Shown here: positions 1,408 to 63,488 of the stretch, one piece after another
Position numbering within the stretch: the stretch's first letter is position 1
Layout of the letters: every line of letters begins with the position of its first letter
Assembly (NCBI GenBank): GCA_017396395.1
Contig: JAFQMF010000017.1
Span: 62,001-126,000, forward strand
Source of the DNA: Clostridia bacterium
GTDB taxonomy: Bacteria; Bacillota; Clostridia; RUG12999
Direction: 5' to 3'
Length of the DNA stretch: 64,000 nucleotides
Made by a program: the position numbers and the translations under genes
The notes under the pieces: generated by a model
What the model was told of the DNA's origin: nothing
Databases searched by the model: none
The model's input: only the letters and a program-made list of their open reading frames with translations

Positions 1408-1499
1408 GGAGAGATGGCTGAGTTGGTTTAAGGCGCACGATTGGAAATCGTGTGATGGTTAATAGCTATCCGAGAGTTCGAATCTCTCTCTCTCCGCCA
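1408..1499 (+). tRNA. tRNA-Ser (anticodon GGA)
   Basis: The acceptor stem GGAGAGA pairs with TCTCTCC before the discriminator G and an encoded CCA. The anticodon stem cacgatt/aatcgtg encloses GGA. The long variable arm between the anticodon and T arms makes this a class II tRNA, as expected for serine. A terminator hairpin follows directly. Confidence 0.96.
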
Positions 1500-10524: not shown

Positions 10525-11688
10525 CTATTCAAATATCCTGACTGCTCTGTCTAAAATTCCGTTCACTTTGGAAATTACCACTCCGTAATTTGTAAAAGGA
10601 ACCCCTTCCTCTTTACAAAGCTCCATACGGCTTTTTATAGCAGCGTCATTTAACATACACCCACCGCAGTGGACTACAAGGGCATATTTTTTTACTGTTT
10701 TGGGGAATTCTCCCCCTGAGGTAAACTCAAATTCTAGTTTTTTTCCTGTGTATTCTCTTATCCATAAAGGAAGTTTTACTGTGCCTATATCCTTGCATTG
10801 TCTGTGATGAGTACACCCTTCCGAAATTAAAAGGGTATCTCCATCCCTCAATCTGTCAAGAGCTTTACTTCCTTCTTTTGCAACAGAAATATCCAGTTTA
10901 TATCGAAGCATCAAAACAGAAAAAGAAGTAAGGGGAATATCCTCAGGTAAATCCTTTGCCACTTTTCCAAACACCTGACTGTCACATACTACAAGCTTTG
11001 GATTTTCCTTTAGCTTATTTAGTGTATTTTTAAGCTCTTGAGTCTGACACACTACAGCAGTAGCATGACTGTCCAAAATATCCCTTATTACCATTTGCTG
11101 AGGGAGAATAATTCTTCCTTTTGGGGCAGATTCATCAATTGGAGTAACTAAAATTACCATATCTCCTTCATTTATCAGATCTGAAATCAATGGCTTTTCT
11201 GCAGGCTTTATAAAACGCCCCAACATATTCTTTAATGCATCTATATTATTCCCTTGTACAGCACTTACCGCTATTTCATTATCTTTTAGATTGGTATAAG
11301 TATTTATATCGCTTTTATTATAACAGATAATATAAGGAATATTTCGCTTTTCCAAAGTATCTATAAGTTTTTTTTCATACTTTGTAATACCTTCCGTTAC
11401 CACTACTGCAATGTCAGTACTGTTAAGAACTTCCATAGATTTTTCCACACGAAGCTTTCCTAAATCTCCTTCATCATCAATTCCCGCAGTATCAATAATC
11501 ACAACAGGACCAAGAGGCAAAAGCTCCATAGCTTTTTTTACAGGGTCAGTGGTTGTTCCCTTTTCACTTGAAACAATAGACAAATTTTGCCCTGTAACTG
11601 CATTTATAAGACTGGATTTCCCTGCATTTCGTCTGCCAAAAAAAGCAATATGAATTCTTTGTCCCGATGGAGTAGAATTTAATGACAT
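10525..11688 (-). CDS. hydF: [FeFe]-hydrogenase H-cluster maturation GTPase HydF
   Basis: HydF is the scaffold on which the 2Fe subcluster of the H-cluster is assembled before transfer to the hydrogenase. The 387-residue protein has an N-terminal Era-like G domain: Walker A GRRNAGKS at residues 18-25, the TTTDP switch, DTAGI and an NKSD base-recognition motif. A middle dimerisation region follows. The C-terminal cluster-binding domain has CTHHRQC near 300 and a later HCGGC motif, which supply the conserved Cys and His ligands. The gene is 15 bases downstream of hydG. Confidence 0.95.
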   Translation of the reverse strand: MSLNSTPSGQRIHIAFFGRRNAGKSSLINAVTGQNLSIVSSEKGTTTDPVKKAMELLPLGPVVIIDTAGIDDEGDLGKLRVEKSMEVLNSTDIAVVVTEGITKYEKKLIDTLEKRNIPYIICYNKSDINTYTNLKDNEIAVSAVQGNNIDALKNMLGRFIKPAEKPLISDLINEGDMVILVTPIDESAPKGRIILPQQMVIRDILDSHATAVVCQTQELKNTLNKLKENPKLVVCDSQVFGKVAKDLPEDIPLTSFSVLMLRYKLDISVAKEGSKALDRLRDGDTLLISEGCTHHRQCKDIGTVKLPLWIREYTGKKLEFEFTSGGEFPKTVKKYALVVHCGGCMLNDAAIKSRMELCKEEGVPFTNYGVVISKVNGILDRAVRIFE

Positions 11689-11703: not shown

Positions 11704-13119
11704 CTAAAATCTGAAATCACGGATACCCTGCTGAATTTTTCCAAGGTGGTCCTTGCAAATTTCACGAACATTTTCCTTAGGTATATTATTAAGCTCAGCA
11801 TTTATCAAAGCCTCACCTATTTTTCTTGTTTCCTCAGATGCATAATCCATTAAAAATTCTTTTAATGTCATAAGTGCATTGGGATGACAGCAGTTTTGAA
11901 TCTGCTTAGCCTTACAAAGTGCCATAAACCTGTCCCCTGTTCTGCCTTCACGATAGCAGGCAGTACAGAAGGAAGGAATGTATCCCATTTCCATAAGCCA
12001 TTTAACTACCTCGTCAAGACTTCTCTGGTCGGAAACATCAAACTGTTCAGTATCATGAGGACGTTCAGCTTCAGCGTAACCCCCTACAGAAGTTCTGGAA
12101 GCACCGCTAATTTGAGACACGCCCAGACGAATAACTTTTTCTCTTACCTCCTGACTTTCCCTAGTAGAAATAATCATACCTGTATAAGGCACAGCTATAC
12201 GAATAAGTGCACAAATTTTCGCAAAAGTATCATCAGAAATACCATTATCAAAAGTGTCGGGGTCAATATCATTTGCTTTTTTAAGTCTAGGGACGCTTAT
12301 AGTATGAGGGCCAACCCCATATACAGCCTCAAGATGCTCAGCGTGCATTAAAAGTCCTGCAAATTCATAACGATAAAGCTCCAGACCAAATAGCACACCT
12401 AATCCCACATCATCAATTCCGCCCTCCATAGCTCTGTCCATAGCCTCAGTATGGTAAGCATAATCGTGTTTCGGTCCTGTAGGATGAAGCACCTCATAGC
12501 TTTCCTTGTGATAGGTTTCCTGAAACAAAATATATGTGCCTATCCCCGCCTCTTTAAGCTTTCGGTAATTTTCCACAGTTGTAGCCGCAATATTTACATT
12601 CACACGGCGAATAGCACCATTTTTATGTTTAATTGAATAAATAGTATTAATACTCTCTAAAATATACTCAATAGGATTCATTTTAGGGTCTTCCCCTGCT
12701 TCAATAGCAAGACGCTTATGTCCCGTATCCTGAAGGGCAATAACCTCTTTTTTGATTTCCTCCTGAGTAAGTTTTTTTCTCGCAATAGTCTTATTTTTTA
12801 TATGGTAGGGGCAGTAAACACAACCGTTAACACAGTAATTTGAAAGATATAAAGGTGCAAAGATAACTATTCTGTTTCCGTAAAAATCCTTTTTAATCTG
12901 CTCAGCTAAATCGTACATTTCCTGCACTTTTTCGGGAATTTCACAAGCAAGAAGCACAGATGCCTCTCTGTGGGTAAGCCCTTTTCTTTCCTTTGCTTTT
13001 TCCAGTATTTCATCAATAAGCTTAATATTTTCTTTATTATCATCCGCATATTTTAAAGTGTCAAGAATCTCATCGTGACTGATAAATTCTTCTGCTTTTT
13101 TTGATTTTGGATTGTACAT
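11704..13119 (-). CDS. hydG: [FeFe]-hydrogenase maturase HydG (radical SAM, tyrosine lyase)
   Basis: HydG splits tyrosine into p-cresol plus CO and cyanide ligands for the H-cluster. In this 471-residue protein the radical-SAM CxxxCxxC is Cys96/Cys100/Cys103. This motif is followed by a ThiH-like TIM barrel. The C-terminal second-cluster region has CTAC near residue 410 and a later CC-H segment, fitting the CX2CX22C motif that holds the dangler-iron cluster and separates HydG from ThiH. Its start is 21 bases downstream of the TM1266-like gene, so the three genes form one unit. The hydE gene and the hydrogenase structural gene are not in the window. Confidence 0.95.
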   Translation of the reverse strand: MYNPKSKKAEEFISHDEILDTLKYADDNKENIKLIDEILEKAKERKGLTHREASVLLACEIPEKVQEMYDLAEQIKKDFYGNRIVIFAPLYLSNYCVNGCVYCPYHIKNKTIARKKLTQEEIKKEVIALQDTGHKRLAIEAGEDPKMNPIEYILESINTIYSIKHKNGAIRRVNVNIAATTVENYRKLKEAGIGTYILFQETYHKESYEVLHPTGPKHDYAYHTEAMDRAMEGGIDDVGLGVLFGLELYRYEFAGLLMHAEHLEAVYGVGPHTISVPRLKKANDIDPDTFDNGISDDTFAKICALIRIAVPYTGMIISTRESQEVREKVIRLGVSQISGASRTSVGGYAEAERPHDTEQFDVSDQRSLDEVVKWLMEMGYIPSFCTACYREGRTGDRFMALCKAKQIQNCCHPNALMTLKEFLMDYASEETRKIGEALINAELNNIPKENVREICKDHLGKIQQGIRDFRF

Positions 13120-13140: not shown

Positions 13141-13386
13141 TTAAATATGTGAGTAAATTGTTTTCGTAGTAATTCCCTTAAGTGCTCCCAGTTTTCCTGA
13201 AAGTGCACTAATTATATCCTGAGGTGCATCTATACAAATGCTGATAACCGACACCTCTTTTTTCGCATAGGGAAGACCCATTCTCCCTAAAATATACTGT
13301 CTGTACTGGTGGAGTATTTCATTAAGCTTTATAATTAGGCTGTCATCCTCCACAATTATACCGATAAGTGCAACTCTTGTTTCCAT
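13141..13386 (-). CDS. TM1266-family iron-only hydrogenase system regulator (putative)
   Basis: This 81-residue protein starts METRVALIGIIVED and has an ACT/NikR-C-like pattern, with alternating strands and helices. It matches the small 'iron-only hydrogenase system putative regulator' proteins that commonly precede HydG and HydF. The role is presumed from context and no DNA-binding domain is visible. The ATG at 13386 has AGGAGG seven bases upstream. An in-frame ATG at 13452 would add 22 residues, translated through the leader hairpin, and is less likely. Confidence 0.8.
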   Translation of the reverse strand: METRVALIGIIVEDDSLIIKLNEILHQYRQYILGRMGLPYAKKEVSVISICIDAPQDIISALSGKLGALKGITTKTIYSHI

Positions 13387-13387
13387 A

Positions 13388-13547
13388 TTTATGCCTCCTA
13401 AGATAAAAAAGGTATGCTTTCTCCCATAAAAAAGCATACCTTTTAAAAACATTAAAAACCGCTCTTTCCTGTGAGAAAAAAATCTTTCAGGTTAGAAATG
13501 TAAAATGTGATTTACAGTTGGAAAACACCCTTCCGCTTATCAGCTTT
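13388..13547 (-). promoter_or_regulatory. Structured leader of the hydrogenase-maturation operon with terminator-like hairpin
   Basis: Between the minus-strand promoter and the first start codon lies about 160 nt of leader. A strong hairpin (aaaaggtatgctttttt paired with aaagcataccttttt, plus-strand 13406-13448) ends in a T run only a few bases before the AGGAGG of the first gene, like an intrinsic terminator. Upstream, short pairing pieces (CCTG/CAGG and GGAA/TTCC) could form competing structures. I cannot match it to a known riboswitch class. Transcription attenuation is an inference. Confidence 0.5.
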
Positions 13548-13576
13548 ATTATATCAAATTCATAGGCTTTTGTCAA
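13548..13576 (-). promoter_or_regulatory. Promoter of the TM1266-hydG-hydF unit
   Basis: On the minus strand, consensus TTGACA (13576-13571), 17-bp spacer and consensus TATAAT (13553-13548). Confidence 0.85.
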
Positions 13577-13603: not shown

Positions 13604-13632
13604 TTGACACAATAATAATAATGATATATAAT
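13604..13632 (+). promoter_or_regulatory. Promoter of the aldolase-like gene
   Basis: TTGACA at 13604-13609 and TATAAT at 13627-13632 with a 17-bp spacer. It is divergent from the hydrogenase-maturation promoter, the two -35 boxes being 27 bp apart. Confidence 0.85.
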
Positions 13633-13667: not shown

Positions 13668-14966
13668 ATGAAATTTGATTTAATGCCCCCTGCTGATCAG
13701 CTGGTTATAATGATGGAACGAATATATGGTTACGGAATGACCACCACCTCCGGCGGTAATCTTTCTATTTTAGATGATAATGGTGATATATGGATTACTC
13801 CAGGAAGTGTTGATAAAGGCTCTCTTACAAGAGATGATATGGTTTGTATTAAGAAAAACGGAGATATTATAGGCAAGCATAAGCCTTCATCTGAATTTCC
13901 CTTCCACAAAAAGCTGTACGAGGCAAGAAGTGATATAAAGGCAGTACTTCACGCACATCCTCCTGCACTTGTAGCTTTCAGTGTAGTAAGAAAAATTCCC
14001 GATACTAAAATTATTGCTAATGTTAACAGAGTTTGTGGACCTATCGGGCTTGCTAAATACGGACTGCCCGGCAGTACGGATTTAGGTGATAAAATAGCTG
14101 ACGAATTTAAAAAGGACGAAAATATCCATACTGTGCTTCTGGAAAATCACGGAGTTGTAATTGGTCATAAGGATTTATTTACTGCCTTTAAGGCATTTGA
14201 AACTATAGAATACTGTGCAAGACTGAATATAAATTCCAATATAATCGGCGAAGCAAAAGCACTTTCTAAAGAACAGATTAAACTGGAAGCTGAAAAGCTA
14301 AAGCCACAGCTTGACGAGTTTGTTCCAAAAAGCCACTCAACCTATGAAAAAGAGGAAAGAGCTAAAATGGCAACACTTATCCGCAGAGGCTATAAGCAAA
14401 GACTGTTTACAAGCACACAAGGAACTTTTTCCCAGAGAATAGACAATGACAGCTTTATAATAACTCCTCATAACATTGACAGAATGTACCTTGATCCTGC
14501 AGATATTGTGACAATAAAATCAGGTATGAAGGAAGCAGGCAAAGAGCCAAGCCGTTCTGTACTTCTTCATAAGCTGATTTATGATACACATCCGGAAATT
14601 AACTCATTGATTATTGCACATCCTCATAATGTAATGGCGTTTGCTCTGACAAATGCTCCGTTTGATTCCAGAACTATTCCCGAAAGCTATATAATGCTTC
14701 GTGACGTGCCTAAAGTTCCTTTTGGCAGTACATTTTCAGACAGCGAAAAACTGGCAAATACCATATCAATGGTAAACCCTGTAGTGCTGGTGGAAAATGA
14801 TTGTGTACTGGTAGCGGGAAATTCTCTTATAAACGCATTTGACCGACTCGAGGTTACAGAATATACTGCAAAATCAATTATTTCTTCTGCACATGTGGGC
14901 GAAATTGTAAAAATCTCTAAAAAACAGGTTGAGGAAATTGACTTAGCTTTTAACCTGGAAAAATAA
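13668..14966 (+). CDS. Tandem-domain class II aldolase/adducin family protein
   Basis: This 432-residue protein contains two consecutive class II aldolase/adducin folds, about residues 1-205 and 220-425. Family enzymes split sugar phosphates such as fuculose-1-phosphate or ribulose-5-phosphate with Zn bound by three His. The first domain keeps TTSGGNLS, TPGSVDKG, HAHPP (metal) and ENHGVVI (metal). In the second, HPHN is kept, but the position of the last histidine motif reads ENDCVLV, so its metal site looks incomplete. The first domain is therefore the probable catalytic one (inference). An aaaggag site precedes the ATG. Confidence 0.82.
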   Translation: MKFDLMPPADQLVIMMERIYGYGMTTTSGGNLSILDDNGDIWITPGSVDKGSLTRDDMVCIKKNGDIIGKHKPSSEFPFHKKLYEARSDIKAVLHAHPPALVAFSVVRKIPDTKIIANVNRVCGPIGLAKYGLPGSTDLGDKIADEFKKDENIHTVLLENHGVVIGHKDLFTAFKAFETIEYCARLNINSNIIGEAKALSKEQIKLEAEKLKPQLDEFVPKSHSTYEKEERAKMATLIRRGYKQRLFTSTQGTFSQRIDNDSFIITPHNIDRMYLDPADIVTIKSGMKEAGKEPSRSVLLHKLIYDTHPEINSLIIAHPHNVMAFALTNAPFDSRTIPESYIMLRDVPKVPFGSTFSDSEKLANTISMVNPVVLVENDCVLVAGNSLINAFDRLEVTEYTAKSIISSAHVGEIVKISKKQVEEIDLAFNLEK

Positions 14967-50537: not shown

Positions 50538-50645
50538 AAAAAAAATTGTTTTATGTCAAAAAGTAAATATATGAAAGCTTTTTGGATAGATTTAGCATAT
50601 GTGAAAAACAAGGAATGTATTATCCCTAATTTAATACATTCGCAC

Positions 50646-50982
50646 AAAGTGTGGTTATGCTGCAAAAGCTTATAAGCAAGGCATAATCAGTGAAGAGGGA
50701 ATGGGGTGAGAATCCCCTGCGATTAAACTGTCGGTGTGTGCATTGAATGTTTTTATATCCGTTATCGAAAGATAGTCATTAGGAAACTGAGAAGGCAGGA
50801 TGTAAAAATGTGGACGTTTAAGTCTATATGGTGCGAGTCACAAGACCTGCTTTGATATTATCTCGTAAGTGCTTCAAAAGCATAGAGGTAATATTTTCAG
50901 TTGTTACTCAACTGAATTGCGATTCATTACAGAAAAACTCAGCTGTGGTAATTTTTTGAAAGAAAAATTACCGCAGTTTTTT
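50646..50982 (+). promoter_or_regulatory. Cobalamin (AdoCbl) riboswitch with terminator
   Basis: The aptamer, about 50646-50865, shows the expected blocks in order: GAGGGAATGGGGTGAGAATCC (50691-50711 region), a TGTCGGTG segment, the B12-box-like AACTGAGAAGGCAGGATG near 50785, and GCGAGTCACAAGACCTGC near 50834. Downstream are a long hairpin (atattatctc with gaggtaatat), a CAGTTG/CAACTG hairpin at 50899-50914, and an intrinsic terminator (ctgtggtaattttt with aaaaattaccgcag, then seven Ts) at 50943-50982. High cobalamin should stop transcription of the ECF genes. Confidence 0.9.
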
Positions 50983-63023: not shown

Positions 63024-63097
63024 GCGGGTGTAGTTCAATGGTAGAATCTCAGCCTTCCAAGCTGATTGCGTGGGTTCGATTCCCATCACCCGCTCCA
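63024..63097 (+). tRNA. tRNA-Gly (anticodon TCC)
   Basis: The acceptor stem GCGGGTG pairs with CACCCGC, discriminator T, encoded CCA. The anticodon loop CTTCCAA gives TCC. First of five tRNAs in one transcript. Confidence 0.96.
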
Positions 63098-63100
63098 CAT

Positions 63101-63177
<77 letters not shown>

Positions 63178-63191
63178 TTATCTTGGCATAT

Positions 63192-63269
63192 GGTGGGTAT
63201 AGTTCAGTTGGTTAGAGCGCTAGTTTGTGGCACTAGAGGTCGTCGGTTCGAATCCGACTATCCACCCCA
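63192..63269 (+). tRNA. tRNA-His (anticodon GTG)
   Basis: The loop TTGTGGC gives GTG. The extra G at position -1 (63192) pairs with C73, the identity mark of tRNA-His. The acceptor stem GTGGGTA pairs with TATCCAC, and CCA is encoded. Confidence 0.96.
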
Positions 63270-63282
63270 TTTTATTTTATAA

Positions 63283-63358
63283 TGGGATGTCGCCAAGGGG
63301 TAAGGCACCAGACTTTGACTCTGGCATTTCGTAGGTTCAAATCCTGCCATCCCAGCCA
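63283..63358 (+). tRNA. tRNA-Gln (anticodon TTG)
   Basis: The acceptor stem TGGGATG pairs with CATCCCA, discriminator G, encoded CCA. The loop CTTTGAC gives TTG. Confidence 0.96.
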
Positions 63359-63411
63359 TTGTTTATTATGGCGGGCATAGGAAAATGAGCCTGCTTAATA
63401 TAATTTAATAT

Positions 63412-63488
63412 GGGCCATTAGCTCAGAAGGCTAGAGCACCTGCCTTTTAAGCAGGGTGTCCGGAGTTCGAATCTCCGATGGCTCACCA
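63412..63488 (+). tRNA. tRNA-Lys (anticodon TTT)
   Basis: The acceptor stem GGGCCAT pairs with ATGGCTC (one G-U), discriminator A, encoded CCA. The loop CTTTTAA gives TTT. A terminator follows. Confidence 0.96.

Follow-up and report, generated by a model that had tools for sequence, protein, structure and literature searches.

The window, a 64 000-nucleotide stretch of a Clostridia bacterium contig (assembly GCA_017396395.1, contig JAFQMF010000017.1), carries on its minus strand an operon in the order promoter, leader, terminator, ribosome site and TM1266-hydG-hydF. The following features were assigned.

13548–13576 (−): sigma-70-type promoter, TTGACA-17-TATAAT, 12/12 consensus match
13509–13541 (−): possible first (degenerate) hairpin copy with a GAU..AUC outer stem and an AAGG/CCAA inner loop, putative, from the MFE fold
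13464–13495 (−): conserved hyd motif hairpin, CUAA-[CCUG]-AAAG-loop-CUCA-[CAGG]-AAAG (models R1, R2 and R3: 38.3, 36.5 and 36.5 bits)
13461–13468 (−): GAAAGAGC, motif 3′ strand and also predicted antiterminator strand (complementary to 13435–13428; prefix-transcript fold)
13428–13435 (−): GCUUUUUU, terminator 5′-arm segment predicted to pair with the motif 3′ strand (complementarity and fold)
13407–13444 (−): hairpin of the intrinsic terminator, with a U-rich tract behind it (17 pairs; −19.9 kcal/mol)
13394–13399 (−): TM1266 Shine–Dalgarno sequence AGGAGG, read from the sequence
13141–13386 (−): gene of the TM1266 family, which opens the operon and encodes the candidate RNA-binding effector (TIGR03959, 111.6 bits)
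11704–13119 (−): hydG (TIGR03955, 937.8 bits)
10525–11688 (−): hydF (TIGR03918, 544.8 bits)

An earlier note on this DNA had described a hyd maturation operon with a perfect consensus promoter, about 160 nt of leader and a strong hairpin plus U run close to the ribosome-binding site, and each part of this description was borne out. The three genes were recognized by their family models with the scores given above, the TM1266 start codon being the ATG at 13386; the promoter (13576–13548) matches at all consensus positions; and the leader measures ∼155 nt when counted from a predicted transcription start near 13541. The terminator stem (13444–13407) closes a 4 nt loop, the segment 13444–13400 folds with the listed energy and the U-rich tract stops a few bases 5′ of AGGAGG (13399–13394). 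The best 38 nt stretch of the leader folds at −19.2 kcal/mol, compared with −16.9 kcal/mol for the best such stretch in 200 leaders shuffled by dinucleotide with a custom shuffler, and the z value for folding of the whole leader is −4.1. The neighbouring upstream gene (13668–14966, +) is divergent from the TM1266 operon and the hairpin is therefore not the end of an upstream transcript. This neighbour encodes a 432-residue protein with two class II aldolase-like stretches and has its own 12/12 promoter at 13604–13632.

The earlier note knew of no riboswitch class for HydG or HydF and had proposed an Rfam scan; when this was run, no Rfam 15 family matched the leader. At the gathering threshold the window yielded only tRNAs and a distant cobalamin riboswitch, and 12 relative loci yielded tRNAs only. 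Permissive searches that took in the window leader, loci L002–L005 and parts of L056 and L057 returned nothing but implausible matches below threshold, and the T-box covariance model found no match in the window, the window leader or the searched relatives. One sub-threshold match, to mir-553 (27.4 bits, the gathering threshold being 82), is only the window's terminator hairpin and was discarded. The cobalamin riboswitch lies at 50630–50868 (+; 42 bits against a gathering threshold of 31.5), and the tRNA genes comprise a cluster of five at 63024–63485 (+) and one at 1408–1496 (+).

For comparison of leaders, eight TM1266 loci of the window's genus and family (the window's included) were gathered together with 80 hydG loci from named genomes; a TM1266 match was present in 67 of these 88 loci and the leaders of those 67 were compared. 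A hairpin upstream of the terminator, corresponding to 13495–13464 in the window, proved to be the conserved part, which the earlier note had not singled out. Its core is 32 nt long and each strand reads C-U-R-A, a stem of 3–4 bp (3–5 bp in some leaders) and R-A-A-G, with the result that the central stem has similar purine-rich internal loops on both sides; the last strand element is R-A-A-G or similar among the TM1266 leaders, and the loop joining the two strands varies in both sequence and length. A descriptor of this pattern matched 26 of the 67 leaders, none of the 67 reverse strands and, in 20 mononucleotide-shuffled sets, never more than one of the 67. Lacrimispora amygdalina (L014) is among the species with a motif site. 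A different conserved leader, with an ACGGAU...AUCGGUU hairpin and CAUCGG...AUCGG, precedes the terminator and TM1266 in L010, L012, L013 and L062; these leaders gave no match to the motif models.

Thirty-two leaders were picked by hand, of which 30 entered alignment A1 and 19 entered alignment A2. In the 19-sequence alignment 96.7% of the pair cells hold and two-sided changes number 27, compared with 8.2 after shuffling. The 19 sequences, which also served to train R1, were picked by eye and with a descriptor requiring pairing in the 3–5 bp stem, so the covariation in the central stem is partly due to selection; the loop-closing pair (columns 16/28), which the descriptor did not demand, is A-U in 12 sequences, G-C in seven and broken in none. 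Among 92 aligned copies, 97.0% of 731 cells are paired, with 176 two-sided changes against 50.1 shuffled and a covariation score of 0.623 against 0.162 shuffled (0.158 or less for slid structures). The search inputs were 88 chosen loci for A4 and 58 chosen loci for A6, and the pair counts of both come from model-fitted alignments. The alignment of related TM1266-hydG-hydF leaders proposed in the earlier note thus gave strong covariation with both 19 and 92 sequences, and its claim stands against the refuting outcome that it had named, a leader unconserved in related operons. The 5′ leader contains a conserved, covarying and aptamer-like structure of the kind found in riboswitches, and it almost certainly holds a conserved cis-regulatory RNA.

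The window site itself was matched by R1 at 13499–13460 (−) with 38.3 bits, the window being part of the R1 training set. R3, built from 65 matches with the window's genus excluded, gave 36.5 bits (E = 8e-8 over 73.7 kb), and with filters off the second-best score in the 7 kb searched was 8.6. R2, built from the 92 matches, scored the site at 36.5 bits with default filters and left it unreported in the strict class scan. In the sister species, R3 gave 38.9 bits in L003, 22.6 bits in L002 and, in L004, 15.8 bits for the main copy and 22.1 bits for an upstream copy occupying the place equivalent to window 13509–13541. The possible degenerate copy at that place in the window (−) gave no motif-model match. 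Tandem copies are clear in L027 (two full matches) and partial in L064 and L004; a tandem arrangement as a general feature was dropped, being clear only in L027 and lacking a model match for a further copy in the window. One good motif site was found in the window's own genome; two further matches at 17.8 and 13.9 bits look like chance, the former having no hyd gene.

Many anaerobes of the gut carry the hairpin, again in front of genes of these kinds. A scan of 391 genomes of the window's class with R1, which was trained only on TM1266 leaders and on no hydG, hydE, hydF or aspA site, gave 58 matches with E ≤ 0.05, distributed over 56 genomes. A link to TM1266, to hyd genes or to aspA-hydF was found for 45 of them (41 of 54 checked, with L164 counted as resolved, plus four of the window's genus); 13 had no linked gene, one of these lying where a contig ends, 1 kb beyond TM1266 (G342). 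All 35 matches with E < 1e-3 were linked to TM1266 or hyd genes. With R2, which was trained partly on the class sites on which it was counted, 59 of 61 sites with E < 1e-3 in the 391 genomes lie before TM1266, hydG, hydE, hydF, aspA-hydF or an iron-type permease, the other two being G342 (contig end) and G058 (30.6 bits). The first gene at the 61 sites is TM1266 in 31 cases, HydG in 19, HydE in five, AspA (then HydF) in two and HydF in one; at one site a FecCD-type permease comes first, followed by an ATPase frame that has a TM1266 domain at its end and by HydE. AspA was identified by eye from the sequence. A motif before aspA-hydF fits this company because AspA can supply ammonium for the bridging ligand of the H-cluster (PMC11736057). 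When matches with E ≤ 0.05 are counted, 52 of the 222 genera of the class have the motif, some chance matches included.

Two layouts of the motif were found, one ahead of a terminator and one over the hydG ribosome site. At 12 of the 19 HydG sites the motif is no farther than 25 nt from the start of hydG and ends in GAAAGAAAGGA-like ribosome sites. In the order reached from L057, whose Alphaproteobacteria label comes from a metagenome-bin title, 46 matches with E ≤ 0.01 fall in 44 of 153 genomes; among the best 40 of these 46 matches, 38 sit 6–13 nt 5′ of hydG with TM1266 immediately upstream and two have no hyd gene.

The co-occurrence of the motif with TM1266 was examined in 67 motif genomes compiled by hand from the R1 and R2 class scans and the site checks. 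TM1266 is present in 236 and HydG in 238 of the 391 genomes; among the motif genomes, TM1266 is found in 65 of 67 (the exceptions are G022 and G195) and HydG in 57 of 67. Of the 238 HydG genomes, 189 have TM1266 and 55 of these carry the motif, compared with two of the 49 that lack TM1266 (Fisher p = 1.1e-4, uncorrected for shared ancestry). The ten motif genomes without a HydG match all have TM1266, the motif standing directly before it in eight of them; in some of the ten, HydG may be missing from the assembly or fall below the cut-off. No motif was detectable by the class scan in 134 of the 189 genomes with both HydG and TM1266, including G004 and G005 of the same family. As in autoregulatory leaders, the candidate protein is encoded in the operon and tracks the RNA. 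Other gene arrangements were also observed. In L127 (G145) and L132 (G369), whose genomes gave no HydG match, the motif is followed by TM1266, a FecCD-type permease, an ATPase and a NifH-like protein, the gene names in the latter resting on sequence resemblance only. In L192 (G063) and L195 (G116), also without a HydG match, the motif precedes a divergent TM1266 (39% identity) and a membrane-like protein, and by eye the downstream genes resemble subunits of NADH-dehydrogenase-type hydrogenases.

The TM1266 family is annotated only as a putative regulator, and TM1266 is not known to bind RNA. The structure model of the window TM1266 (pLDDT 95.8; 81 residues) shows six elements in the order E H E E H E over residues 4–78. 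Its nearest solved folds are 2nzc, which is TM1266 itself (Z = 15.9), followed by NikR sensor domains (Z = 13.8 to 3pht with an r.m.s.d. of 1.5 over 80 residues; Foldseek E = 7e-6 to 2y3y); ACT domains and ribosomal protein S6 rank behind these, and the fold is a common one. The model contains no N-terminal ribbon-helix-helix DNA-binding domain. Comparison of 36 homologues showed that N22, R35, G37, P39, Y40, D53, I59, G64, G67, G71 and K75 are kept and that no His or Cys is invariant, for which reason nickel sensing in the manner of NikR was dropped. In G377, a TM1266 domain (75.5 bits) forms the C-terminus of an ABC transporter ATPase frame (L138:1724–2830, +) beside a FecCD-type permease and HydE, an arrangement which suggests that TM1266 is a ligand-sensing module.

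The connection between motif and terminator was assessed from their complementarity. A terminator-like hairpin lies within 170 nt downstream at 68 of 102 linked sites. Pairing of the 3′ tail of the motif with the 5′ arm and loop of its own terminator has a mean energy of −11.27 kcal/mol, compared with −8.33 kcal/mol (s.d. 0.30) for re-matched partners, and none of 5000 permutations was as low; the 5′ half of the motif pairs with its own terminator no better than chance (469 of 5000 permutations). When the window transcript is ended in the terminator loop, the predicted fold (−22.9 kcal/mol) has an antiterminator next to the motif's inner stem. In this prefix, a fold constrained to hold the complete motif is 1.5 kcal/mol less stable (−21.4 kcal/mol) and one constrained to hold the listed antiterminator pairs is 0.8 kcal/mol less stable (−22.1 kcal/mol), so that the antiterminator is favoured over the forced motif by only 0.7 kcal/mol. 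In the window the inner stem can coexist with the antiterminator and the true conflict is confined to the outer C-U-R-A/R-A-A-G part; from these energies and this coexistence, the R-A-A-G strand of the outer loop appears to be the contested piece. By complementarity, the aptamer-like motif and its platform are mutually exclusive, as in riboswitches, with the window conflict limited to that outer part. The suggestion of the earlier note that the terminator is conditional gains support from the match of motifs to their own terminators, and so does that of an alternative helix: the motif 3′ strand is complementary to the terminator 5′ arm and forms the antiterminator with it in the prefix fold. 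Since the motif 3′ strand is complementary to its own terminator, the folded motif should mean OFF; judged from the sequence, this polarity is likely.

The leader is probably a cis-regulatory RNA of an uncatalogued class that switches H-cluster maturation genes off, with TM1266 as its putative clamp. An effector that clamps the motif would occupy the R-A-A-G strand, no antiterminator would form and transcription would stop before TM1266; without the effector, the R-A-A-G strand would pair with the terminator arm and RNA polymerase would continue into the operon. Where the motif overlies the ribosome site, clamping would mask the start of hydG and block initiation. Both layouts would then have the same sign (OFF), because the clamp either favours termination or hides the hydG start. 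The clamp would be the TM1266 protein itself, giving negative feedback tied to the ligand or metal that TM1266 senses. In its full form the mechanism is put forward tentatively: TM1266, a NikR-type sensor without the DNA-binding domain, may read RNA, a symmetric oligomer clamping the strand-symmetric CURA/RAAG hairpin and shutting its own gene, the H-cluster assembly genes and the FecCD/NifH-like clusters by terminator or ribosome-site block when the ligand or metal is plentiful.

That TM1266 is the motif binder is about an even prospect; it is the most likely effector, and its main rival is a metal or metabolite binding directly. As a true riboswitch, the hairpin would bind a small ligand with its two purine-rich internal loops, be it iron(II), some other metal, a precursor of the H-cluster, SAM or a related cofactor, and TM1266 would accompany it only for sensing the same thing as a protein. 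This is a serious possibility, if a lesser one: a small, conserved and covarying motif with a terminator or ribosome-site platform resembles known riboswitches, the link to one pathway is near-exclusive (the 59 of 61 sites), two motif genomes have no TM1266 match and the linked FecCD-type transporter genes fit an iron-related ligand. However, the motif accompanies TM1266 even without HydG, no Rfam relative was found, and the variable loop between the strands leaves few positions for a ligand pocket. Because the company of TM1266 is near-exclusive (65 of 67 genomes), a protein-bound leader is at least as likely as a riboswitch.

A role for some other hairpin-binding protein, or for an element of mRNA stability or processing with TM1266 merely as operon company, is improbable. 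Although the dual layout could suit any hairpin-binding factor and the motif also precedes hydG, hydE, hydF and aspA, it is TM1266, the sole protein examined for tracking, that follows the motif, and the antiterminator complementarity argues for control of termination. Leader-peptide attenuation, or a terminator that arose by chance and regulates nothing, is hardly credible given the covarying structure in 92 aligned copies and the ribosome-site copies directly before hydG; a 13-codon GTG frame read by eye at 13528–13487 overlaps the window motif but has no run of one codon.

The motif would bear on a costly choice for bacteria, whether to assemble the H-cluster of [FeFe]-hydrogenase. It provides a defined 32 nt target in one class and a second bacterial order, with a candidate effector gene adjoining. 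If TM1266 control of the leader is true, the TM1266 family would gain a function and a handle on hydrogen-producing strains would be obtained.

A literature search of open-access papers returned none naming RNA control of [FeFe]-hydrogenase maturation genes, a 2017 list of 224 candidate RNAs being covered via Rfam only, and no hyd RNA motif is described in the searched passages of the RNA-motif discovery papers. The iron/nickel-cobalt riboswitches (czcD, NiCo) and the Moco/Wco riboswitches likewise belong to metal- or cofactor-related genes, whereas the hyd motif matches no Rfam family at the thresholds searched. Moco RNAs precede some hydrogenase operons (PMC5651825, PMC9481103). TM1266 (TIGR03959, 2nzc) is like the C-terminal nickel-sensing domain of NikR in its sensor fold and differs in having neither the ribbon-helix-helix nor an invariant His or Cys. 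Small hairpin riboswitches such as THF-II (folE motif) are similarly built as one compact hairpin whose internal loops are conserved, and they too overlie a ribosome site or stand ahead of a terminator; the hyd motif differs in its gene link and matches no Rfam family. In PyrR-type attenuation and ribosomal-protein leaders, RNA likewise precedes the gene of the binder and genes of its pathway, and here too the bound form, with TM1266 as the proposed binder, would favour the terminator. Set beside these systems, the hyd motif is rated as a new class within a known kind of structured cis-regulatory leaders.
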